Shown: positions 1 through 62,543 of the stretch, one piece after another
Numbering within the stretch: position 1 is the stretch's first letter
How the letters are laid out: every line of letters begins with the position of its first letter
Assembly: GCA_949283145.1 (NCBI GenBank)
Contig: CASDRL010000022.1
Coordinates: forward strand, 1-62,543
Reading direction: 5' to 3'
Source: an uncultured Clostridia bacterium
Lineage (GTDB): Bacteria; Bacillota; Clostridia; Christensenellales; CAG-917
DNA: 62,543 nt
Made by a program: the position numbers and the translations under genes
The notes under the pieces: model-generated
Databases searched by the model: none
What the model was told of the DNA's origin: nothing
The model's input: the letters and a program-made list of their open reading frames with translations, nothing else

Positions 1-399
1 AGCGCGGGAGCCTCGCCGAGAGTTTTTTGACGAGGTTAAAGCGAGCACGATTTGTGGGGGAAAGGAGCCGCAGGCTTTGATGCGGGCACCTTGCGCCCAT
101 GCAAGGTGTCGCGAACTTTGCCTTGCGGCGACGCAACGCAGGCAATAGTATACATATTGGCAAGTTTCGGCTGTGCAAAAGCGCCGAAAAGAATTGCTCC
201 GAGGCTGGTTCGTATTATTCCTGTCTGGCATGCAACATCTCGTGTTCGCCGGTTTTTTGGCGGATTGTTCGTTGCGGTTTTTTAATATCGCCTTTCAAAA
301 TGATTTTTTTCCGGCAACGGGATGCAAGGCATGTCCTGTTTTGGGTACGTGTGTTTGAGTAAATTTAAAGAAAAACTTGCAAAGGGACGAGTCGAGACC
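1..399. other. Noncoding stretch with small stem-loops at window edge
   Basis: I see no credible gene here. The overlapping short reading frames have no ribosome-binding site and no recognisable product. Several inverted repeats are visible: CCTCG/CGAGG around 10-35, CACCTTGC (87-94) with GCAAGGTG (101-108), and an imperfect TTGCCT/AGGCAA pair around 118-148. They could belong to a structured RNA or a repeat that starts outside the window. No convincing promoter for the gene at 400 was found. Confidence 0.4.
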
Positions 400-3300
400 A
401 TGGAAACCATAAATGCGGAGCAGATCAAGGATATATTGCAGGCATATATCGAAGCGGAGGGACACGACGCACGCATTTACCGCGAAAAGAAGATAGGTCA
501 GGCGGTGTGCGATCTGATGGCAGTCACCGACATTCTCACCGGATATGAGATAAAGAGCGACCTCGACAATTTCTCAAGGCTTTCGTCTCAGATAAACGCG
601 TACGATATGTTTTTCAACAAAAATTATATCGTTGCGGGTGCGGGACACGCAAAAGCCGCCGCCGAAAAGGTGCCCGATCATTGGGGAGTGATCTGCATAG
701 ACAGCAATTCGGTCAGCTGTGTGCGCGAGGCACGCGTGAACAGAAACGCGAGGGCAGAGCAACAACTGTCCATGCTTTGGGAAGTGGAACTCAAAAATCT
801 GCTTATAAGGAACAATATGCCCGCATACGCCCTTAAAGGAAGGCAATTCATAATAGACAGGCTTGTGCGGTCGGTGTCTCAGCCCGCACTGTTTCGCCAA
901 ATCGCCGCAGAGCTGAAAACGCGCAACTACGCCCTTTTTTACGGGGATGATGACGGCGGAGGCGAAAATATCTTCGGGAGGGAACTGATAGACAGGCTGT
1001 CCGACGCGATAGGCGACAATTTCACCCTCGACAAATGGATAGAGCTGTTCGGCAGGGCAAAGAGCGTAAGCGAGCGCAAGCACGGTGCGGCTTTAAAGAT
1101 CGAAAAAAGCAGAAAGCCGCATACCATATCCTACAAGGACATAGAAGTGTCGCTGGGCGCGCCGTGGATAAGTGTGGATATAGTAAACGATTTCGTCTAC
1201 CACATCCTGAACTTCGATGACTCCGAAATTTATAGAAAACTCAGCAGTTGGTTGAAGTCGGACCCGTATATCGTAAGCTACGAGGAGGTGACGGGGTGTT
1301 GGCATCTGCGCGAAAAGGATTTTTTCGCATCGGGCAATCCAAACGCCGTTTTAAAGTACGGGACAAAGAGGTATAACGCCCTGCATATCATAGAGGCGAC
1401 TTTAAATCTGCGCGAGATCAGGCTGAAAGACGGCGACGGGAAATATGACGAAAGTGCCACGATCGCCGTGCTCGAAAAGCAGAGGCTCATCTGCGACGAG
1501 TTCAAAGCTTGGGTGTGGAAGGATGAGGACAGGATATGGGAGATAGAGGAGGCGTACAACACCATGTTCGACGGGATCGTCGTCCCGCGCTACGACGGCA
1601 GGGGACTTGCCTTCCCCGATATGTGCAAAGAAATAAAATTGTTTGATCACCAAAAGGACGCGGTGCAAAAGATAATTTCGTCGCCTAACACGCTGCTTGC
1701 CTTCGATGTGGGTGCCGGCAAGACATATATCATGATAGCCGCCGCCATGGAGATGAGGAGGCAGGGGATCTCGCGCAAGAATATGTTTGTCGTGCCCAAC
1801 AATATCGTCGGACAGTGGGCGTTGATGTTCACGACGTTATATCCGTCCGCCAAAGTCCTTGTCATAGAACCTAGGACGTTCAAAAAAGAAATGCGGCACA
1901 AAGTGCTCGAACAGGCGCAGAGCGGCGATTACGACGGCATAATAGTCGCGTACAGCTGCTTTGAGATGATAAATCTTTCGGGGGAGTATATAGCCGCGAG
2001 CCTTGATGAAAAAGTGTCCGTTCTGCGCGGTGCCATCCGCGGGCTTAGGGCTGACGGCAGGTACAGGTGGGGCAGCGTTCCGCTCGAACGCGAAATAAAA
2101 TACATAAATTCGATCATGGGCGAACTCATGGAGGGGGTAAATTCCGCCCTGGGTGAAATTACTTTTGAAAAGCTGGGGATAAATACGCTGTTTGTAGACG
2201 AGGCGCACAATTATAAAAATATACCCATAAGGACCGGTCTTAAAAACCTGCGCGGCATAAACGTGACGGGTTCTAAAAAGTGCCTGGATATGCTCGAAAA
2301 GGTAAAATGCATTCAAAAAGAAAACGGCGGCAGGGGTGTGGTCTTTGCAACGGGCACACCGCTTTGCAATTCCATATCCGACGTGTACGCCATGCAGATG
2401 TATCTTCAGCCAGAAGCCCTTGAAAAGCGCAGGCTGGACAGGTTCGACAATTGGGTAAAGACGTTTGCCCGCCCCGAACAGGTTTGCGAGATAGACGTGA
2501 ACGCCTCCGGCTACCGCTTCGTGCGCAGATTTTCCGAATTTTTCAACTTGCCGGAGCTGAGCAAACTGTTTGCGCAGGTCAGCGTGTTTTTTGCGGCGGA
2601 CGGCGGCGAGCTGCCCGAATTTTCGCAATATAACGACGTTGTGATAGAGCGCAGCGCAGAGCTTAAAGAATATATAGACGACCTCTGCCTCCGCACCGAA
2701 AATATAAGGGCTAAAAAAGTTCCCTCCACGCGGGATAACATGCTCAAGATCACTACGGACGGCAGGAAGGCGGCACTCGACCTCACTTTGGTTGGCAAGC
2801 AACAAAAATATGACGATACGAGCAAAATATTCAATTGTGTGGCTAATGTTCTGCGCATTTACAAGGAGAATGCGGGCTGTACGCAACTTGTGTTCTGCGA
2901 CTATTCAACGCCTAACGGTGCCGATTTCAGTGTGTATCGGGAACTTAAAAATGAGCTCGTTGCGGCAGGGATACCCGAAAAGGAGATAGCGTTTATCCAT
3001 TCGTATACAAGCGAAATATCCAGGCTGAAATTGTATGAGGATTTCAACATCGGAAAGGTGCGCATCATAATAGGCTCAACATTCAAACTCGGTCTGGGCG
3101 CAAACGTGCAAAGAAAGCTCAAAGCCGTTCACCACGTCGATGTTCCGTGGCGTCCTGCCGATATGATCCAGCGCGAGGGCAGGATACTTCGCCGCGGCAA
3201 CGAGAATAAAGAGGTGTTCATATACCGTTACATAATCAATGGCAGTTTCGACGCATATTCGTGGCAGATCCTCGAAACGAAACAGCGTTTCATTTCGCAG

Positions 3301-3990
3301 TTTTTAAGTGGCAGCAGTTACAGCCGCACGGCATCCGACCTTGAAAACAGTGTGCTCACTTATTCCGAAGTCAAGGCACTCGCAGTGTCCGACGCGAGGA
3401 TGAAGCTGCTTGTCGAAAAAGAAAGCGAGGTGCGCAATCTGCGCGTACTGTACATGCAGGAGCTTGAAGCAAGAGAGGAGGCTGCGCGCACCGTTTCGGC
3501 TCTCGAAGAGCGCGTTCCAGCATTGGAAGCCGAATATGATGCTACACTTAAAAACGCCGCATATGTTCTGTCGCTCACAAAAGAGTGCCTTGCCCGTGAA
3601 ATAAGATCGGCGTGCGAAAATATAGCTCGGTGCGACCTGCTCACGCCGCATGACGGTGCGCTTGGCGAAATATGCGGCTTTGCGGTCGACTTGCCCGACA
3701 AGCAGTCGAAAAAGAAGCCTTATCTGCTACTGTCCCGAAACGGAGCGAGTTATATGATGGAGGTGGGCAGGACGGTACAGGGCAATATGCGCAGATTTTC
3801 AAACTTTTTCGCTGCTTTCGGCAAGCAGGCGGATGCAAAGAGGCAGACGCTCGACGAAGAGAAGGCGCGCCTTACCGCTTTAAAACAGCAACTCGCTTCG
3901 CCGCTTGTCTATGACAAAAAACTTGCTGCGGCAAAGACGGAATATGACAGTCTGATCGAAGATATGCGCGAGAATATTTACGCACAGTAG
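400..3990 (+). CDS. Nuclease (sce7726-like PD-(D/E)XK) fused to SNF2/DEAH-type helicase
   Basis: A 1196-residue accessory protein. Residues 1-90 look like the sce7726 nuclease family: D38, then Y-E50-I-K52-S-D54, followed by a conserved SRLxxQ stretch, a PD-(D/E)XK-like arrangement. The second part is a superfamily 2 helicase with Walker A (DVGAGKT, near 437), DEAH (near 600), motif III (ATGTP, near 650) and motif VI (QREGRILRRG, near 922). A coiled-coil-rich C-terminus follows (about 1010-1060). The ATG at 400 is chosen because GGGACGAG lies about 10 nt upstream; an in-frame ATG at 322 would add 26 residues. Codon use (many ATA, AGG and AAA codons) is unlike the neighbouring core genes, suggesting transfer. 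Known relatives of each part occur in restriction, defence and mobile-element proteins. The substrate is unknown, and a defence role is inference. Confidence 0.75.
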   Translation: METINAEQIKDILQAYIEAEGHDARIYREKKIGQAVCDLMAVTDILTGYEIKSDLDNFSRLSSQINAYDMFFNKNYIVAGAGHAKAAAEKVPDHWGVICIDSNSVSCVREARVNRNARAEQQLSMLWEVELKNLLIRNNMPAYALKGRQFIIDRLVRSVSQPALFRQIAAELKTRNYALFYGDDDGGGENIFGRELIDRLSDAIGDNFTLDKWIELFGRAKSVSERKHGAALKIEKSRKPHTISYKDIEVSLGAPWISVDIVNDFVYHILNFDDSEIYRKLSSWLKSDPYIVSYEEVTGCWHLREKDFFASGNPNAVLKYGTKRYNALHIIEATLNLREIRLKDGDGKYDESATIAVLEKQRLICDEFKAWVWKDEDRIWEIEEAYNTMFDGIVVPRYDGRGLAFPDMCKEIKLFDHQKDAVQKIISSPNTLLAFDVGAGKTYIMIAAAMEMRRQGISRKNMFVVPNNIVGQWALMFTTLYPSAKVLVIEPRTFKKEMRHKVLEQAQSGDYDGIIVAYSCFEMINLSGEYIAASLDEKVSVLRGAIRGLRADGRYRWGSVPLEREIKYINSIMGELMEGVNSALGEITFEKLGINTLFVDEAHNYKNIPIRTGLKNLRGINVTGSKKCLDMLEKVKCIQKENGGRGVVFATGTPLCNSISDVYAMQMYLQPEALEKRRLDRFDNWVKTFARPEQVCEIDVNASGYRFVRRFSEFFNLPELSKLFAQVSVFFAADGGELPEFSQYNDVVIERSAELKEYIDDLCLRTENIRAKKVPSTRDNMLKITTDGRKAALDLTLVGKQQKYDDTSKIFNCVANVLRIYKENAGCTQLVFCDYSTPNGADFSVYRELKNELVAAGIPEKEIAFIHSYTSEISRLKLYEDFNIGKVRIIIGSTFKLGLGANVQRKLKAVHHVDVPWRPADMIQREGRILRRGNENKEVFIYRYIINGSFDAYSWQILETKQRFISQFLSGSSYSRTASDLENSVLTYSEVKALAVSDARMKLLVEKESEVRNLRVLYMQELEAREEAARTVSALEERVPALEAEYDATLKNAAYVLSLTKECLAREIRSACENIARCDLLTPHDGALGEICGFAVDLPDKQSKKKPYLLLSRNGASYMMEVGRTVQGNMRRFSNFFAAFGKQADAKRQTLDEEKARLTALKQQLASPLVYDKKLAAAKTEYDSLIEDMRENIYAQ

Positions 3991-4144
3991 ATCCGATGCA
4001 CCTAAAAACACACAAGCCGTTTGGTGTGATGACTGTATACGCCACGCAATGATGCCGCCGCCGGCAAATTTCTTGACAAAACAGTCTCGACATCTGCCGA
4101 AACAAAGCACCGCACCGCCGTATAATGCCCCCTTCCCGGAACGG

Positions 4145-4170
4145 AAAGCCGCACTGTTTAGTGCGGTTTT
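4145..4170 (+). terminator. Rho-independent-like terminator after the helicase gene
   Basis: CCGCAC/GTGCGG stem with loop TGTTTA, followed by TTTTCC on the plus strand. It lies 155 nt after the stop of the nuclease-helicase gene. A near-identical hairpin recurs at 4764-4785, so it is also part of the local repeat family. Confidence 0.5.
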
Positions 4171-4342
4171 CCTGGCGGAGAAAGTGGAGCCTGAATCGAA
4201 CTTAAATGAGGAGTGAAATCGATTTAATGGCGGAAAATGATGGGACGGAGAAGACATTATAAGCGGCGGAGAGAAAAAAATTCGTCGTAAAAAGTGTTGG
4301 ATGTTGACATAAATTCGTTGTAATTTTTGTGTTCTTGTGGTC

Positions 4343-4549
4343 GGAGGTGGATGTTCGCCATAAGTGTAGGGCATTGAAAGGGTAATGTTTTGGTGAGCGT
4401 TGCATCACATCGCGGACGGCAGGAAAGGGCGAAGGCGTCTTGCGGTGCAAGCCGCCGAACCTGCGCGAATTGAGGAATTGCCCGAAAAGGTAAAATAATA
4501 TCGCAAACGATATATCACGCAATTAGTAGACATTTGCGCGCAATGTTCG
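4343..4549. repeat. 207-bp direct repeat, copy A
   Basis: Begins GGAGGTGGATGTTCGCCATA and is clearly similar over its length to 4787-4995, with scattered substitutions and small indels. Its first bases resemble the tRNA-Tyr T-arm/acceptor end. It is followed by a hairpin with a T-run (minus strand) and then a 23-nt exact copy of the tRNA-Tyr 3' end, which is the same arrangement that follows copy B. Confidence 0.8.
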
Positions 4550-4559
4550 CATGCCTTGA

Positions 4560-4619
4560 CCTCCTCCCACCAAGCAAAAACCCAGCCAAACGGCTGGGCT
4601 ATTGCTTGGTGGGAGGAGG
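4560..4619. repeat. 18-bp inverted repeat enclosing a terminator-like hairpin
   Basis: CCTCCTCCCACCAAGCAA (4560-4577) is perfectly complementary to 4602-4619. Inside it is a second stem, CCCAGCC (4581-4587) with GGCTGGG (4592-4598). Read on the minus strand the inner stem is followed by TTTTTG, like the terminator downstream of the tRNA operon. The right arm is part of a tRNA-Tyr 3'-end copy, so the left arm is an inverted copy of the same sequence. Confidence 0.75.
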
Positions 4620-4629
4620 TGGATTCGAA
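4607..4629 (-). repeat. Detached copy of the tRNA-Tyr 3' end
   Basis: The 23 nt are identical to 5054-5076, which is the CCA end, acceptor strand and T-arm of the tRNA-Tyr gene. The match stops abruptly and the rest of the tRNA is absent. tRNA 3' ends are common integrase attachment sites, so this could be an old attachment duplicate. It could equally be debris from tandem duplication of a tRNA gene. Confidence 0.7.
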
Positions 4630-4786
4630 AGGAGATAGGCGGGTGCTAACGCACCGCCTTCGACGGAATAGCCGTTTTGCCGTTATCTGATCTGCGTGCG
4701 GAGTTCACGCAGAACGGCAAACGGCGTCAGCGTCGGGTAAGAATCCACCTGCCCAAAACAGAAAACCGCACTATTTAGTGCGGTTA

Positions 4787-4995
4787 GGAGGTGGATGTTC
4801 GCCATAAGTGCAGGGCATTGAAAAAGGGGAGGGCTTTGGCGGGCGTTGCGTCTCATTGCAGGTGGCAGGAAAGGGCGAAAGCGTCTTGCGGTGTAAGCCG
4901 CCGAACCTGCGCGCATTGTGGAATTGCCCGCAAAAATTAAACAATATGGCAAACGACGCATCACGCGATCGGCATAAATTTGCGCGCATGGTTCG
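4787..4995. repeat. 207-bp direct repeat, copy B
   Basis: Second copy of the repeat at 4343-4549. It is preceded by the hairpin at 4764-4785 and followed by the tRNA operon terminator and the intact tRNA-Tyr gene. The duplicated unit therefore seems to be repeat + terminator + tRNA-Tyr 3' end. Confidence 0.8.
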
Positions 4996-5016
4996 TCCAC
5001 CGTCCCTTCCACAAAC

Positions 5017-5050
5017 AAAAACCTCAACCGAATGGTTCGATTGAGGTTTT
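5017..5050 (-). terminator. Terminator of the tRNA operon
   Basis: Stem AAAAACCTCAA/TTGAGGTTTTT with a 13-nt loop, followed on the minus strand by a T-rich tract. It begins 4 nt past the CCA end of tRNA-Tyr, the last gene of the operon. Confidence 0.85.
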
Positions 5051-5053
5051 TGT

Positions 5054-5138
<85 letters not shown>

Positions 5139-5139
5139 A

Positions 5140-5215
5140 TGGAGCTGGTGAACGGAATCGAACCATCAACCTGCTGATTACAAATCAGCTGCTCTGCCTA
5201 TTGAGCTACACCAGC
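5140..5215 (-). tRNA. tRNA-Thr (TGT)
   Basis: 76 nt with encoded CCA. Acceptor GCTGGTG pairs with 5144-5150. Anticodon TGT lies in the context TTTGTAA. It starts immediately beside tRNA-Tyr (spacer 1 nt). Confidence 0.95.
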
Positions 5216-5272
5216 GTATTGAGGGTGCTCCGGCTTGAGCGGTGGGGCGCGGTTGCGGGCACCGGCTTTTTG

Positions 5273-5348
5273 TGGTGCCTCGGGGCGGACTTGAACCACC
5301 GACACAGGGATTTTCAGTCCCTTGCTCTACCAACTGAGCTACCGAGGC
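5273..5348 (-). tRNA. tRNA-Phe (GAA)
   Basis: 76 nt with encoded CCA. Acceptor GCCTCGG pairs with 5277-5283. Anticodon GAA lies in the context CTGAAAA. Confidence 0.95.
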
Positions 5349-5363
5349 ATACGGTCTAGGGAA

Positions 5364-5388
5364 GTGGCAGTGACGGTGTCACTGCCAC
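5364..5388. repeat. Perfect 11-bp hairpin between two tRNA genes
   Basis: GTGGCAGTGAC and GTCACTGCCAC flank a 3-nt loop (GGT) in the spacer between tRNA-Asp and tRNA-Phe. There is no T-run, so it is more likely a processing or spacer stem than a terminator. Confidence 0.6.
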
Positions 5389-5396
5389 TCGACCTT

Positions 5397-5473
5397 TGGC
5401 GATCCGGAAGGGACTCGAACCCTCGACCTCCAGCGTGACAGGCTGGCGTACTAACCAACTGTACTACCGGACC
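5397..5473 (-). tRNA. tRNA-Asp (GTC)
   Basis: 77 nt with encoded CCA. The 5' acceptor GGTCCGG pairs with the strand at 5401-5407 through one G-U. Anticodon GTC lies in the context CTGTCAC. The discriminator is G, as usual for tRNA-Asp. Confidence 0.95.
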
Positions 5474-5480
5474 GTATATT

Positions 5481-5557
5481 TGGTGGGCCTTCACGGACTC
5501 GAACCGCGGACCAATCGGTTATGAGCCGACCGCTCTAACCAACTGAGCTAAAGGCCC
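5481..5557 (-). tRNA. tRNA with CAT anticodon (Met elongator or Ile2)
   Basis: 77 nt with encoded CCA. Acceptor GGGCCTT. Anticodon CAT lies in the context CTCATAA. It is not an initiator, since position 1 is paired. The GGCTCATAACC anticodon arm and the GGRCCTTTAGCTCAG start recall Bacillota tRNA-Ile2, whose C34 is modified by TilS to read AUA, so the true identity may be Ile rather than Met. Confidence 0.85.
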
Positions 5558-5588
5558 TCATCCGGGGATATCCCATCGTCACGAGTTT

Positions 5589-5665
5589 TGGTCGGGGTGA
5601 GAAGATTCGAACTTCCGACCCCATGGTCCCAAACCATGTGCGCTACCAAACTGCGCCACACCCCG
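5589..5665 (-). tRNA. tRNA-Pro (TGG)
   Basis: 77 nt with encoded CCA. Acceptor CGGGGTG pairs with 5593-5599. Anticodon TGG lies in the context TTTGGGA. It is the first gene of the operon, 28 nt downstream of the promoter -10 box. Confidence 0.95.
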
Positions 5666-56651: not shown

Positions 56652-56660
56652 CTTTCCGTG

Positions 56661-56978
56661 TGCGAGCATAGTCTGTAAGCCGAGTTCTGTCTTGGACGAC
56701 GATCTATCTCGGCCGCATGTTGCCATACGGCTCTAGCGAACGGGAGCTTGCGGGCAGCATTTCACGCTCCTTTCTTGCATCGGGTGGGGTTTACACCGCG
56801 CCTCGTCGCCGATTTGCGGGTGAGCTCTTACCTCGCCTTTCCATCCTTACCCTTGCGGGCGGTTTTTTTCTGTTGCACTTTCCTTGAAGTCGCCTTCACA
56901 GGCAGTTGACCTGCACCCTTGCCCTGTGATGCTCGGACTTTCCTCACGTTTCCGTGCCGTCGCCCGGCTATCTCGCGC
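56661..56978 (-). ncRNA. rnpB: RNase P RNA
   Basis: About 318 nt. Helix P1 is formed by GCGAGATAG at the 5' end and CTATGCTCGC at the 3' end. Conserved core elements are visible on the minus strand: GAGGAAAGTCCGAGC (P4/CR-I), an ACAGAAA stretch, GGTAAGAG and the final AGACAGAACTCGGCTTACAG. It is the catalytic RNA that matures tRNA 5' ends together with RnpA. Exact ends are within a few bases. Confidence 0.95.
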
Positions 56979-57069: not shown

Positions 57070-58779
57070 TTACGCTCTCTTGGCGGAATCTTCGACCGAA
57101 CGCTTGTATTCCTCCGCCCACTTTTTCATCTCGCGGGCGTGCGGCACCGCGTGCGCGGAGTAATCGTTGCCGCCGATGAGACGCGCAACTTCATCCGTGT
57201 CGTCATTGAGAAGCACGAGGCGGGTGAGCGTCTTGCCGCCTTCCACTCTCTTTTCTATCAGGAAATGGCTGTCCGCCATTGCCGCAAGCGAAGGCATATG
57301 CGTGATGGCGATGACTTGCCGCGAACGCGAGATGTTGCACATTTTTTCCGCAACGACTGCGGAAATATGCCCGGAGATGCCGGTGTCTATCTCGTCGAAC
57401 ACCATGGTGCCGATGCCGTCTATGCCTGCGACTATATTTTTGAGCGCGAGCATGAAGCGGGACATTTCACCGCCGGAAATGATCTTTGCGAGCGGTTTGA
57501 GCGGTTCGCCGACATTGGGCGAGATGAGGAATTCCACCCTGTCGCCGCCGCTTGCCCCGACATTGTCCGCCGAGTAGTCGCTCTCGATGTTCACTTTGAA
57601 TGTGGTGCCGCCCATCCCGAGATCGCCGAGTTCTTTCGTTATGGCGCCCTCGAACTCCTGTGCCGCTTTTTTGCGCAATGCGCCGAGTTTTTCCGCGGCG
57701 GCGGTGAGCTCTTTCCCTTTTGCCAAGATCGCGCGTTCCAGCTCTTCGACTCTCTCGGACGCATTTGCGAGAGTGTCCGCTTCCGCTACGGCTTTCTCGT
57801 AGAATTCCGTCATTGCGGCATAACTGCCGCCGTACTTGCGCTGCAGATTGCGCACCGTTTCCAGCCGCTCTTCCACGGCATCGGCGCTTTTGGCGTCGAA
57901 ATCGAATTCGCGCATCATATCGCCGATCGTCTCGCCGATGTCTTCTATCTCCGTCTTGGCGGCGTCCAGCCTGTCGCAAAGAGGTTCTATGCCTCCGTCG
58001 AATGAGGAGATGGTGTGGAGGCTCGCCGCCGCGGCTTTCAGATTGCCGCCGACGGACGCTCCGTCATATCCTTCAAGTGCGCTCCTTGCGGAAGAGAGCG
58101 CGGAAAGGATCTTTTCCGTGTTCCGGATGCGTTTGCGCTTTTCGAGGAGCTCTTCCTCTTCCCCTTCCTCGATGCCCGCACGCTCGATCTCTTCGATCTG
58201 AAATCTCAGCACATCCAGCCGTCTCGCCCTCTCGCTCTCGTCGCCGAAACGGGAAAATTCCGCTTTCAACGCGCGGTATTCTTCGTGGAGCTCTCCGACT
58301 TCATCACGTGCGGAAAGTATATCTTTGCCGCCTATGCCGTCCAGCATACCTTCGTGATTGGCGGGTTTGATGAGGGATTGGTGTTCGTGCTGTCCGTGGA
58401 TGTCCACCAAAAGTTCCGTGAGCCCTTTGAGCACGGAAAGCGTGGTCACTCTGCCGTTGATGCGGCACTCGTTTTTTCCGTCCGCGCTCATTTTGCGGCG
58501 GATGACAAGGACCTCTTCGGGCTCTATGCCCACATCTTCGAGATAAGCTTCGACTGCGGGCGTGAGATAATCCTCAAAGACCGCCTCGACCGCGGCGTGA
58601 TCGGTGCCGTAGCGTATGAGACTGCGGTCCGCGCGCTCGCCGAGGACGAACCCGAGGGAATCGATGATGAGAGATTTGCCCGCGCCTGTCTCACCGCTCA
58701 GGATATTTAGCTTGTCTCCGAGCTCGAATTCCACCCTGTCGATGAGCGCGATGTTCTGCACCGAAACCGATCTGATCAT
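57070..58779 (-). CDS. recN: DNA repair protein RecN
   Basis: A 569-residue SMC-like ATPase for double-strand-break repair. Walker A GETGAGKSLIIDSLGFVLGERAD (first half) is at the N-terminus. A coiled-coil arm runs from about 150 to 380, and the signature ISGGEMSRFMLALK and Walker B MVFDEIDTGISG are near the C-terminus. It overlaps argR by 4 nt. nadK-argR-recN is a standard Bacillota order. Confidence 0.96.
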   Translation of the reverse strand: MIRSVSVQNIALIDRVEFELGDKLNILSGETGAGKSLIIDSLGFVLGERADRSLIRYGTDHAAVEAVFEDYLTPAVEAYLEDVGIEPEEVLVIRRKMSADGKNECRINGRVTTLSVLKGLTELLVDIHGQHEHQSLIKPANHEGMLDGIGGKDILSARDEVGELHEEYRALKAEFSRFGDESERARRLDVLRFQIEEIERAGIEEGEEEELLEKRKRIRNTEKILSALSSARSALEGYDGASVGGNLKAAAASLHTISSFDGGIEPLCDRLDAAKTEIEDIGETIGDMMREFDFDAKSADAVEERLETVRNLQRKYGGSYAAMTEFYEKAVAEADTLANASERVEELERAILAKGKELTAAAEKLGALRKKAAQEFEGAITKELGDLGMGGTTFKVNIESDYSADNVGASGGDRVEFLISPNVGEPLKPLAKIISGGEMSRFMLALKNIVAGIDGIGTMVFDEIDTGISGHISAVVAEKMCNISRSRQVIAITHMPSLAAMADSHFLIEKRVEGGKTLTRLVLLNDDTDEVARLIGGNDYSAHAVPHAREMKKWAEEYKRSVEDSAKRA

Positions 58780-59234
58780 GGCCGCAGGATCTCCTCCAAT
58801 TTAGCGGCGACTTCTTCGGCGTGGACTGCGGTGTCCACTGCGGCAAAGATGGTATTGTCGCCTGCGATGACGCCGAGGACTCCGTTGAGTTCCAGTCTGT
58901 CGATCGTCTCCGCGGCTGCGTTTGCGGAGCCCGTTTCCGTCTTGATGACAACGATGTTTTCGGCAACTTTGATGGAAACGACGGTGTTGCGGAACACGCT
59001 GAGAAAGCGCTCGGACCTGGCGTCTTTGGGCTGCTGCACCTGATAGCGGTATTTCTTGCCGTCCGGGGACAGCACCTTGACCAGCCCGAGGTCGCGGATG
59101 TCACGGGAGACCGTCGCCTGAGTGACGGAAAATCCGTCCTCAAAAAGGCGGGAAACAAGCTCTTCCTGTGTGTCTACGTCGTATCTGGAAATGATCTCTA
59201 CGATCCTTCTCTGACGTGCGTTCTTGCCTGTCAT
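58776..59234 (-). CDS. argR: Arginine repressor ArgR
   Basis: A 152-residue regulator of arginine biosynthesis and catabolism, working as a hexamer with arginine as co-repressor. The N-terminal winged helix has SRDIRDLGLVKV. The C-terminal hexamer core ends with the Asp pair in IAGDNTIFA, which binds arginine in relatives. The ATG at 59234 follows GGAGGTGACGC and overlaps the nadK stop; the ORF could start 11 codons earlier without a ribosome site. Confidence 0.95.
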   Translation of the reverse strand: MTGKNARQRRIVEIISRYDVDTQEELVSRLFEDGFSVTQATVSRDIRDLGLVKVLSPDGKKYRYQVQQPKDARSERFLSVFRNTVVSIKVAENIVVIKTETGSANAAAETIDRLELNGVLGVIAGDNTIFAAVDTAVHAEEVAAKLEEILRP

Positions 59235-60046
59235 TGCGTCACCTCCGCGGACTGCGCCGAGCCCCATCTGTTCATTTTGTCAAGCAGTCTTGCGTAAAAA
59301 TCCTTTCCTCCCGCATCGACGAAAGGCGCGGTGAGCGGCGAACGCTTCACTTTGACCGACGCGCGCGAAGACAGCGTGCCCGAAGCCGTTCCGTCCACGA
59401 TGATGCCCGCGCCTTCGCCGCCTATGATGTCGAGCTCTATCGAGGCGTCTGCGCCCACAACGAGAGGACGGGAATGCAGGGTGTGCGGACAGACCGGGTT
59501 GACGACAAGCGCGCTGAGATCGGGAGCAAGCACGGGGCCGCCCGCGGAAAGCGAATAAGCCGTGGAGCCCGTGGGCGTCGCGACGATGACGCCGTCGCTG
59601 CGGTACGCGTCCGAAAACTGCCCGTTCACCCTGAGTTCTATGCTCACGGGACGGGTGGACGCGCTCTTCACCACGATATCGTTGAGTGCGAGATAACTCT
59701 TGCCGTCCGCAGTGCACTCGATGAGCATCCTGCGCGCCACGCTCTCGCATACGAGCGCGGCGGCAAGCGTTTTGACGTCCACTTGTGCGTCGAATTGCGT
59801 AAGGAAACCGAGATTGCCGATGTTGACGCCGACGAGAGGAACGTCCGCACGCGCGGCACGGACGGCGGCTTCCAGCATGGTGCCGTCTCCGCCGAAAGCG
59901 AGCAAGCGGTCGAACCCCGCGGGGATCTCGCGCCCCTGCGGGATCTCGGTCAGCAAGAAACCGCTCTCCGAAGAGAGATCGTGCAAAAGTTTGCTGCGGA
60001 CGGGATGTCCCGTCAAAGACGATTTGGTGTAAACTGCTATCCTCAT
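59231..60046 (-). CDS. nadK: NAD kinase
   Basis: A 271-residue enzyme making NADP. The GGDG motif is in AFGGDGTMLEA, the NE/D-type motif is in GVNIGNLGFL, and the PTGSTAYSLSAGGP loop follows. The ATG at 60046 is chosen because a promoter is predicted at 60071-60099; an ATG at 60091 lies upstream of the expected transcript start. First gene of the nadK-argR-recN run. Confidence 0.94.
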   Translation of the reverse strand: MRIAVYTKSSLTGHPVRSKLLHDLSSESGFLLTEIPQGREIPAGFDRLLAFGGDGTMLEAAVRAARADVPLVGVNIGNLGFLTQFDAQVDVKTLAAALVCESVARRMLIECTADGKSYLALNDIVVKSASTRPVSIELRVNGQFSDAYRSDGVIVATPTGSTAYSLSAGGPVLAPDLSALVVNPVCPHTLHSRPLVVGADASIELDIIGGEGAGIIVDGTASGTLSSRASVKVKRSPLTAPFVDAGGKDFYARLLDKMNRWGSAQSAEVTQ

Positions 60047-60070: not shown

Positions 60071-60099
60071 ATTATACATTGCCGAACGCATAAATTCAA
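60071..60099 (-). promoter_or_regulatory. Promoter of nadK-argR-recN
   Basis: TTGAAT (60094-60099), 17-nt spacer, TATAAT (60071-60076) on the minus strand. Confidence 0.75.
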
Positions 60100-60268: not shown

Positions 60269-60979
60269 TCACTTTTCGAGAAGCAAAAGATATTCCCTGT
60301 TTTTGTCCTCGTACATCACGGGGGACGGCGCGGAACCGAGCACTTTGAAGCCCGCCGTTTCGGCAGCCGCCGCCACCTTTTCCACCGCCTTTTTCCTCTC
60401 CTTTTCCGAAAGGACGATGCCTTTCTTTGAAAGGGCGCTTTTCCCCGCTTCAAACTGCGGTTTTACGAGTACGACCGCCCTTCCGCCCTCTTTCAGGACG
60501 CCGAAAAACGCGGGAAGCACTAGGGTCAGGGAAATAAAACTGAGATCTGCGGAAAGAAAGTCTTTGTCCGCGGTGGGCGGGAGTTCTCTGGCATTCGCTT
60601 TGAGGAATGTCACGCGGCTGTCGGAAAGGATATTCTCGGGCAGAGCGCACTCCCCTACATCAACGGCAAGCACGCTCTTTGCGCCCTTTCTCAGCATGAG
60701 ATCGGTAAAACCGCCGTTGGAGCAGCCTATATCGGCGCAATCCGCTCCCGAAAGGTCGAGGGAAAAGACGCGGAGAGCTTCCGCGAGTTTATATGCGCCC
60801 TGCGAGGCGTAGCCTTCATCTTCAAGGATGCGCGCGGTCTTGCAGTCTTCCGGGACGTCGAAAGAGGGCTTTTTCACCACTCTGCCGTCCACTTCGACCA
60901 GCCCGCGCAAAATGAGATTTTCCGCATAAGTGCGGGAACGAAGGGAAAATTCGCGCTGCAAAAAAACATCAAGCCTCAT
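60269..60979 (-). CDS. tlyA: TlyA family rRNA 2'-O-methyltransferase/hemolysin-like protein
   Basis: A 236-residue protein. The N-terminal S4 RNA-binding domain (about 1-60, MRLDVFLQREFSLRSRTYA) is followed by an FtsJ-like Rossmann methyltransferase with the SAM motif CADIGCSNGGFTDLML. The family methylates rRNA ribose (TlyA of mycobacteria acts on 16S C1409 and 23S C1920). It is shorter than TlyA of about 270 because the C-terminal part is short. It overlaps oapA by 11 nt and so is expressed with it. In B. halodurans this gene is among the neighbours of OLE RNA. Confidence 0.9.
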   Translation of the reverse strand: MRLDVFLQREFSLRSRTYAENLILRGLVEVDGRVVKKPSFDVPEDCKTARILEDEGYASQGAYKLAEALRVFSLDLSGADCADIGCSNGGFTDLMLRKGAKSVLAVDVGECALPENILSDSRVTFLKANARELPPTADKDFLSADLSFISLTLVLPAFFGVLKEGGRAVVLVKPQFEAGKSALSKKGIVLSEKERKKAVEKVAAAAETAGFKVLGSAPSPVMYEDKNREYLLLLEK

Positions 60980-61895
60980 CGTTTTGAGAGGAAGATGCTG
61001 CGCCTTCTACGGGATCGGCGGCGTTTTCATTTGCGCTTTCGCTCTCTTCCGTGGCGGGCGCGTTTTCGCGCATCAGTTCCGCGTCCGACGTGTCCGCAGC
61101 GGGGACGGAGGCGGCTGCCGCATTAGCGCGCGCAGAGGTCTCTTTGCCCTTCACCGCTTTGTCGGCGCCGGATTTGGGCGCTGCCCCGTTCTCTTTTGAG
61201 GCGAGAGCCTGATATTTCTTCTTTTTCTCGACCTGACGACGGCGTCTCCTGCGCTCCTCGGGATGGAAGATGGCGATGATCTTCGCCACAAACATCACAA
61301 ACTCCTTGGATTTGGAGATGGCGATGTTTTTGAGGAAGGCTTTGCCGCCGACCATGACTGCGGAGATGAGCGCCGACACGCCGATGGACAGCCATTGCTG
61401 CCAGCTTTCATCCAGGTTGTCGGTGATGGCGATGACGATGACCGTACCGCAGGAACCGGAGATGATGCTGATGATGTCGCCGATGACGTCGTTGCAGACG
61501 TTGGAGACCTTCTCGTTGTTCTTGACCAGCCACATCGCGGTCTTGGCGCCGTACTCTTTTTTGGACGCCATGGAGACTATCGGCGTGATGTCGCAGGAAG
61601 TGACGGACACGCCGATGCCGTCCGCGATGATGCCCGCGAGCACGATGAAGAACAGCAGCACTACCGTGATCGCGATGTTGCCCGCCGAGGACGTGATCTC
61701 AGTCAGATAGCTGATGAATGCGGAAAGAAAGAGGGTGACGATCGTGATCTTGATCGCCCAATAATTGTGCTTTTTCTTATGTTTTTTCTGGTTTTTTTGA
61801 CGGGACGGAACGGCGCCGTTATCTGCCGGCTTTTGAGAAATTTCGTCGGAAACGTCCTGTGCGCCCTCCGACGGGGCGGAGATGTTCTCTTCCAA
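60969..61895 (-). CDS. oapA: OLE RNA-associated membrane protein OapA
   Basis: 308 residues from a TTG start. AAGGAG lies 6 nt upstream. An upstream-extended 434-codon frame would run through the structured RNA and is rejected. Four hydrophobic segments are seen: about 45-63, 73-93, 138-158 and 168-188. A conserved-looking acid pair, D92 and D102, flanks the loop ADGIGVSVTSCD just after segment two, followed by ITPIVSMASKKEYG. This matches my recollection of OapA, the membrane protein that binds OLE RNA and links it to the membrane in B. halodurans. A lysine-rich N-terminus (about 33-43) and a run of six arginines after segment four (about 215-220) would suit RNA contact. The family is usually about 180-200 residues; here there is a ~40-residue N-terminal and a ~90-residue C-terminal Ala/Glu-rich extension. 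It is immediately upstream of tlyA. Confidence 0.82.
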   Translation of the reverse strand: MEENISAPSEGAQDVSDEISQKPADNGAVPSRQKNQKKHKKKHNYWAIKITIVTLFLSAFISYLTEITSSAGNIAITVVLLFFIVLAGIIADGIGVSVTSCDITPIVSMASKKEYGAKTAMWLVKNNEKVSNVCNDVIGDIISIISGSCGTVIVIAITDNLDESWQQWLSIGVSALISAVMVGGKAFLKNIAISKSKEFVMFVAKIIAIFHPEERRRRRRQVEKKKKYQALASKENGAAPKSGADKAVKGKETSARANAAAASVPAADTSDAELMRENAPATEESESANENAADPVEGAASSSQNDEA

Positions 61896-61910
61896 AGCAA
61901 ACTCCTTGCG

Positions 61911-61928
61911 CGGACGCCTAGGCGTCCG
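61911..61928. promoter_or_regulatory. 18-nt palindrome just upstream of the oapA ribosome site
   Basis: CGGACGCCTAGGCGTCCG can fold into a 7-bp stem with a CTAG loop. It lies 3 nt before the oapA ribosome site and about 36 nt after the 3' end of the structured RNA. It might be a cleavage or boundary element between the RNA and the mRNA, or an operator. Confidence 0.55.
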
Positions 61929-61939
61929 ATGTATATGTG

Positions 61940-62543
61940 CGGCATGAGCCGTGATCTGCGCTTTTGCTGGCAACAGCCTGAGTAAACCTTGCGCCATCAG
62001 GTTCGGTAGGCTTTCCCCCTGCGGAAACTCGCCGTCGCCGTACGAGGGGTTTCCCATTACTCCGCAAGATGCAGGGTCTCCCGCTGCACAACCGAATCGC
62101 CACTTAGAGCACACTATAATCCCCAAGCTGCCTCGTGAGAACAGTCTAGAAGATTTCCTTGGCAATTTTCGTCCGCCCTTATCTTTTTTTGCAGACAACA
62201 TTTCGAGAGGCGATCGCCCATCGGCATCGGCCGGATGTCTCGGGGCGTGGATCCTCTGTCCCTGAAAGTCCACTCAAAGCAGGCTACACTGCACACAGCA
62301 CTTGCGCACCGCATAGCAGGTTTAACCCCGGTCAGTAGGCGCTGCGCCCACCGATTCGGGTCTCCGCGACGATCGGGTCGAGTTTCGCATGCCGTTGCAA
62401 AGCGCCCGAAAGTCTTAACTCCCAGCAACAGCCCCGGTTTGGGCAACCAAAGCCATCACCAGAAACTTCATCGATATGCCCTTTGGCGATATTTTACCCC
62501 CGCCTTCGGGTCGGCGAAAACTGACTAGAATACTGCGCCAGCA
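61940..62543 (-). ncRNA. OLE (ornate, large, extremophilic) RNA candidate
   Basis: About 600 nt on the minus strand with no credible gene, immediately upstream of oapA and within the tlyA-nadK-argR-recN neighbourhood, which is the known OLE location. The two ends pair: the last seven bases of the window (62537-62543) are complementary to 61965-61971, extended by CAG/CTG across an internal loop. Nested inside are a 7-8-bp helix (62000-62007 with 62091-62098) and a hairpin region at 62021-62065 with CTCG/CGAG and GCGGA/TCCGC pairing. In OLE RNA of about 600 nt such terminal pairing and dense internal structure are expected. The 5' end may lie a few bases beyond the window. Alternative: another large structured RNA of unknown class. 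Confidence 0.8.

Follow-up and report, generated by a model that had tools for sequence, protein, structure and literature searches.

Few conserved bacterial RNAs that lack a known biochemical function are as large as the OLE RNA, which has been proposed to be a natural membrane-crossing RNA. In H. halodurans, the gene cluster that carries it is described as being transcribed as one polycistronic RNA, and Lyon and Breaker have proposed that its helix P3/P3.1 crosses the bilayer, for which about 14 bp were reckoned necessary (PMC12265935). Two copies of the RNA are reported to join at L4, at the complementary loops L5 and L6, and at the P9 loop (PMC12265935, PMC12286853), while the partner protein OapA is reported to bind palindromes in or near P2 and P4a, with a basic cytoplasmic cluster of OapA suspected of binding OLE (PMC12265935). 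An anti-Shine-Dalgarno mimic, CCUCC in P6, has been linked to the binding of bS21 (PMC12054373). Fernando and Breaker (2024, PMC11332333) assign truncated matches of at least 235 bits to a “variant 2”, regard the DxxxD motif as distinctive of OapA and a near-cut-off CNNM match as typical of it, and suggest that OLE and OapA might never occur independently.

Here we compare with these systems the window, the whole stretch of 62,543 nucleotides that was analysed, which is contig 22 of an uncultured Clostridia genome in its entirety. With a probability of about 0.85, this locus appears to hold an intact OLE RNA together with its partner OapA. It adds an example from a small (1.7 Mb) genome in which OapB is present and no MpfA was found.

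Identity and distribution of the OLE RNA

The first-pass annotation had pointed to a gene-free region of ~600 nt with paired ends as a likely OLE RNA, and had named beforehand a search with the Rfam model. That search (cmscan, RF01071) gave a match of 413.7 bits (E 4.2e-118, model positions 18–616), against a gathering score of 50 bits. The paired part, ~580 nt with its ends closed by P1, bears out the predicted region; mechanical open reading frames do overlap it on the window, yet the match stands at the E-value given. It is the sole OLE match in the window genome (1,719,221 bases searched in 81 contigs, listed as 95.37% complete), and 0 of 14 control genomes gave an OLE match. The covariance score, together with the CNNM match and the DxxxD motif of the neighbouring protein, supports the reading of the pair as OLE RNA and OapA. 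The annotation had further called the genome sporulating, with which a Spo0A homologue (262 bits, cut-off 200) agrees, while falling short of proof.

For comparison we used an alignment of 120 RNAs: the window RNA, 29 of its family, 89 from other families of the order, and one from a Pusillibacter replicon. The 89 represent 29 best-scoring loci and 60 hand-chosen from the list, out of 175 OLE genomes. Five short matches (G002, G011, G013, G017, and G020) were kept out of the alignment, and two 5′-cut RNAs (L036 and L039) were excluded from counts of length and conservation, which used 118 of 120 or 158 of 160 RNAs. The window RNA carries the majority letter at 162/162 columns that are at least 97% conserved, and at 219/219 columns that are at least 90% conserved.

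OLE was found in 35 of 43 family genomes, with a 36th (G012) cut by a contig end, in 175 of 396 genomes sampled from the order, and in 284 of 398 sampled from the phylum. Given this last figure, its occurrence outside extremophiles is unsurprising: OLE is ordinary in the phylum and does not single out an extremophile. Nine relatives have names: all are assemblies of uncultured Clostridia, and two belong to Candidatus Limadaptatus, a name that appears in a chicken-gut study. A mobile OLE was considered and rejected. The OLE DNA had no match in a phage collection, a 25-base motif had no exact match among viral contigs, two scans of viral contigs with OapA yielded no confirmed relative, and the one phage record with OapA (MT835614.1) reads as bacterial DNA. 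A plasmid match covering 15% of the query has the full order ole-oapA-dxs-tlyA-nadK-argR-recN on a 504-kb Pusillibacter faecalis replicon (NZ_AP023421.1, 7983–14945), which is typed as a conjugative plasmid.

OLE genes are often cut by the ends of assembled contigs. In 9 of the 35 family genomes with OLE, the match lies at most 40 nt from a contig end, compared with 2/35 for RNase P RNA, a weak contrast among related genomes (Fisher p 0.045). In G002, OLE is split across two contig ends (model positions 1–483 and 458–616). The longest identical run shared by the window OLE with a congener is 143 nt, and within genus g3 such runs extend to 274 nt; for RNase P RNA the figure is 129 nt. Some of the “variant 2” cases of PMC11332333 may therefore be broken full-length RNAs, and truncated OLE matches in metagenome assemblies can be artefacts.

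Table 1. Features of the OLE locus in the window (RNA nt n corresponds to window coordinate 62544 − n).
Feature	Position	Strand	Remarks
OLE RNA	61951..62543	−	Rfam match 61951–62540; paired part 61965–62543
P1, 5′ arm	62536..62543	−	partner 61965–61972; covariation
P2, 5′ arm with CUAG palindrome	62525..62535	−	partner 62142–62149
P3/P3.1, 5′ arm, proposed membrane-crossing helix, 15 bp in window RNA	62509..62523	−	partner 62163–62178
P4 with A-rich loop L4 (UAAAA), dimer contact	62485..62504	−	contact as described in PMC12286853, PMC12265935
AUCGAU palindrome beside P4a, possible second OapA site	62470..62475	−	putative site assignment
P5 with loop L5 (GCCC), complementary to L6	62419..62465	−	
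P6 with loop L6 (GGCA); right arm without CCUCC	62368..62414	−	
P9; apical loop with GGCC palindrome (62229–62232), dimer contact	62183..62279	−	
P13, 22 nt, GAGA loop, place of OapB site	62069..62090	−	OapB site as described in PMC12265935
16-nt perfect palindrome (hairpin), OLE–oapA gap	61912..61927	−	
oapA, 308 aa, TTG start at 61895	60969..61895	−	
oapA codons 101–126, TM2–TM3 loop, conserved P-x3-M-ASKK-x2-G, candidate RNA contact	61518..61595	−	putative function
oapA codons 136–140, DxxxD motif	61476..61490	−	
oapA codons 212–308, C-terminal tail of genus: basic, then low-complexity	60972..61262	−	
tlyA	60269..60979	−	
nadK	59231..60046	−	
argR	58776..59267	−	
recN	57070..58779	−	
RNase P RNA (RF00010)	56659..56975	−	234.9 bits; as far as known outside the OLE complex

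RNA architecture and the P3 helix

RNAalifold predicts a closed structure in which P1 pairs nt 1–8 with nt 572–579; 95% of cells in P1 are paired, and 5 of its 8 pairs show at least three double changes. Overall, 29 of 32 helices hold a pair with at least three double changes (n = 120), a count of sequences rather than events, in helices predicted from the same alignment. At J4a/5, the place of the OapC-binding kink-turn described for OLE, and at J6/7, the window RNA carries the commonest or second commonest letters of the family.

The contacts described for OLE dimers are widely kept: UAAA occurs in L4 of 118/120 RNAs, GCCC in L5 of 117/120, and GGCA in L6 of 120/120. The apical loop of P9 is palindromic in 102 of the 120, whereas 500 shuffled sets average 49.7 and never exceed 63, and its letters vary (GGCC, GAGCUC, CGCG, CGUACG, GUGCAC). 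This swapping of letters with the palindrome retained, which relatives offer as a comparative test, is what would be expected for self-pairing between two copies. As sequence signatures, the L4, L5/L6, and L9 contacts are all kept in the window RNA. For the palindromes at which OapA is reported to bind, CUAG is present in both arms of P2 in 118/118 RNAs, and AUCGAU beside P4a in 104/118; the latter is a possible second OapA palindrome near P4a.

Not all described protein sites are equally constant. P13, the place of the OapB site, is shorter than 19 nt in 18 of 120 RNAs, including 8 of the 9 RNAs aligned from genus g3 and that of a congener, G029, and we note that it is shortened in L024, L026, L027, L029, L032–L035, and L031 despite OapB in the genomes. 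The idea that loss of P13 tracks loss of OapB within the family was rejected, as OapB was found in all ten such genomes. The CCUCC mimic in P6 was likewise rejected as a general feature, with CCUCC in only 6 of 120 right arms.

P3 was compared across 158 RNAs, of which 40 belong to other families in the class and phylum; this set of 40 (of 284) was hand-chosen among the listed higher-scoring matches, one per family, so that low-scoring variants are under-represented. No stem is less conserved in sequence than P3 (0.44 and 0.48 bits per position), and the P3 segments are nearly constant in length, at 19.8 nt (sd 0.46) on the 5′ side and 20.5 nt (sd 0.71) on the 3′ side. Matched to its own partner, P3 forms 11–16 bp (mean 13.9); matched to the partner segment of another RNA, it forms 9.1. 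Expressed as sd/mean, length varies by 2.3% and 3.5% in P3, 15.5% in P7, 7.8% in P9, and 16.8% in P13. P3 thus keeps pairing and length and hardly its sequence, which provides a comparative test for the membrane-crossing proposal. In the portions of PMC12265935 drawn on here, the passages on P3 length ask only whether the helix is long enough, and the term “sequence conservation” is absent.

The pattern suits a sequence-neutral ruler, and bilayer crossing is not thereby proved. The fixed length and free sequence of P3 could equally stem from junction geometry at both of its ends, with no membrane crossing, and we would put this explanation at even odds. P11 resembles P3: its sequence is likewise free (0.69 and 0.64 bits), and its length varies fairly little (6.3% and 3.4%). 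P4, P5, and P14 are also fixed in length, and when the 40 phylum RNAs are taken alone, P11 and P13 vary about as little in length as P3. What speaks for a role particular to P3 is that it is still the least conserved stem in the phylum-only set as in the whole, and that in the cryo-EM structure P3 is described as projecting about 50 Å from domain 1, between the OapA sites (PMC12265935).

OapA, and an oapA locus in which no OLE was found

Directly downstream of the RNA, the first-pass annotation had seen a four-TM, OapA-like protein, and this description holds: the frame has 308 codons, is preceded by AAGGAG at 61902–61907, and an AlphaFold2 model (pLDDT 75.6, pTM 0.60) predicts long helices at residues 45–69, 74–100, 127–160, and 164–194 along with shorter ones. 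The DxxxD motif (D136 and D140 in the window protein) is present in 31/31 OapA proteins aligned, and OapA is located 3′ of OLE in 57 of 59 loci. In the family search that the annotation had proposed, no OapA family was among the Pfam or NCBIfam scan matches of the protein, and CNNM was matched near the cut-off (26.1 bits against 28.4; in a second search 28.5, listed above the cut-off), as is typical of OapA according to PMC11332333. A Foldseek search of the model against the PDB found nothing at E <= 0.001, the best match being CorB at 0.02. In the VIA structure comparison CNNM chains ranked first, at Z values that helical bundles can reach by chance; on this ranking, among VIA-listed folds, the predicted fold of OapA would be CNNM-like. 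The MpfA-type combination of CNNM, a CBS pair, and CorC was not encountered in the Pfam matches of the 308-aa protein, which list CNNM (below cut-off) and a weak Aa_trans. We also note that the C-terminal tail is charged and genus-specific, with a run of six Arg and four Lys.

The record MT835614.1 (L136) bears on the role of the loop between TM2 and TM3. It is an UNVERIFIED “Bacteriophage sp.” entry from human faeces, with the order xseA-xseB-oapA-tlyA-nadK-argR-recN followed by further bacterial genes (1–5333; gene names by homology to window genes and by eye). It is syntenic with the family member G001, which has 602 nt of OLE between xseB and oapA; in MT835614.1, oapA starts 34 nt after xseB. 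No OLE was detected across its 24.9 kb at the gathering score, or in the first 3 kb at E <= 1. Its OapA is 64% identical to that of G001 over 170 residues and keeps 20 of 26 positions that are at least 90% conserved, DxxxD among them. The lost positions are I89, P105, M109, G116, A192, and F210, three of them within the TM2–TM3 loop, where ASKK is also gone; the adjoining TM3 segment is nearly identical. Because both ends of OapA carry basic stretches, this loop should be cytoplasmic. One reading, on the evidence of one unverified scaffold from a genome in which OLE could sit elsewhere, is that the RNA was lost and the docking loop then decayed. The TM2–TM3 loop is thus a candidate RNA-docking site, and may have another role. 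If the reading is true, OapA is able to function in the absence of the RNA, and holding the RNA is what the loop is for.

Neighbourhood, proposed mechanism, and comparison with described systems

Downstream of oapA, the order tlyA, nadK, argR, recN is as the annotation described, and the promoter it proposed for nadK has a counterpart in the promoter-like TTGAAT-17-TATAAT at 60099–60071 in the gap. Within the family, tlyA is downstream in 21/28 loci and dxs in 6/28, compared with dxs in 21 and tlyA in 8 of 29 loci of other families; upstream of OLE is recG in 23 of 27 loci, and xseA-xseB in one. RNase P RNA lies ~5 kb downstream of OLE in the window; in many family genomes it is about as far from OLE on the contig that carries both, on either strand. 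Elsewhere in the window, six consecutive tRNA genes occupy the minus strand at 5057–5665.

Several known partners are encoded in the window genome. OapB (89 aa) lies between map and infA and matches 7k9b, “OLE-associated protein B”, at E 3.6e-8; it is present in 37 of 43 family genomes. bS21 is also present. L7Ae proteins occur in 32/43 family genomes, including 9/9 congeners. No L7Ae protein (OapC/YbxF) was found in the window genome, where a contig ends 73 nt before rpsL, the place of OapC in relatives; L7Ae lies directly before rpsL (the YbxF/OapC place) in G016, G024, and G027, and G024 has a second copy elsewhere. OapA is the sole CNNM match in the window genome, with a second strong one in 5 of 43 family genomes, which agrees with the anticorrelation reported between OLE and MpfA.

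The start of the RNA and the gap that follows it bear on two other accounts of the locus. The window, being a whole contig, ends at the first paired base (nt 1) of P1, and the Rfam match begins there at model position 18, as might be seen if the ole gene were decaying or cut short. In each of the 27 family members whose contig extends at least 60 nt upstream, a sigma-70-type promoter scores at least 10/12 and ends 6–19 nt before P1, where the missing model positions would lie, so that little or none of the mature RNA of the window should be missing. Such a score is reached by 1.3% of shuffled sequences, and outside the family by 35/88 upstream regions of OLE in the order and 13/39 in the phylum. 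Since there are also zero mismatches at the 219 conserved columns, we give decay almost no credence, and the window RNA looks intact. In this family, OLE appears to be transcribed from a strong promoter of its own; that of the window would fall beyond the contig end. With a promoter at its start and oapA following it on the same strand, the element might instead serve chiefly as a cis-acting leader of oapA and not as an RNA in its own right; the GC-rich hairpins that lie in the OLE–oapA gap of the eight folded genus members would suit such a role. A terminator in this gap was considered and rejected: the other seven hairpins differ in sequence from that of the window, no U-run is consistent, and a minus-strand scan predicted none there. 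A length of 600 nt with dimer-type palindromes and conserved protein sites exceeds what a leader would need, and OLE is described as an abundant RNA that is bound to the membrane and acts within a complex (PMC12265935, PMC9723947), which makes the leader account improbable.

We therefore retain the reading of an intact OLE RNA with its partner OapA. By analogy with work on H. halodurans and with cryo-EM of clostridial OLE RNAs, the RNA would be abundant, would pair with a second copy through L4, L5/L6, and L9, and would dock on OapA at the palindromes in P2 and near P4a. The complex may be held at the membrane and help stress adaptation, probably by tuning divalent-metal handling through the CNNM-like OapA. 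The most speculative steps are that P3 passes through the bilayer and that OapA residues 101–119 touch the RNA; the joint proposal, in which P3 spans the membrane as a ruler helix indifferent to sequence and OapA holds the RNA by this TM2–TM3 loop, we hold to be doubtful.

Compared with described systems, the locus shows both differences and likenesses. In contrast to the polycistronic cluster of H. halodurans (PMC12265935), the family has a near-consensus promoter right before P1. Known OLE loci (PMC11332333) differ from those of the family in the recG that lies upstream in most of the latter, and from the window in that the latter has no dxs between oapA and tlyA. Unlike OLE with the bS21-linked mimic (PMC12054373), P6 of the window has no CCUCC. 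Its OapA shares with that of H. halodurans and others the place after OLE, four long helices, DxxxD, and a CNNM-like core, whereas in the seven genus members aligned the protein is longer, its N-terminus bearing a basic stretch and its C-terminus a charged tail. Relative to the CNNM transporters MpfA, CorB, and CorC, it has the four long helices and DxxxD, and no CBS or CorC domain (Pfam, E <= 0.001). The RNA itself is like the full-length OLE class of Fernando and Breaker (PMC11332333) in helices P1–P15, conserved nucleotides, dimer loops, and oapA neighbour, and also in score, that class starting at 390 bits with the authors’ own model and the window RNA reaching its score with Rfam’s model; the window locus is a sound additional member of a known and common family.
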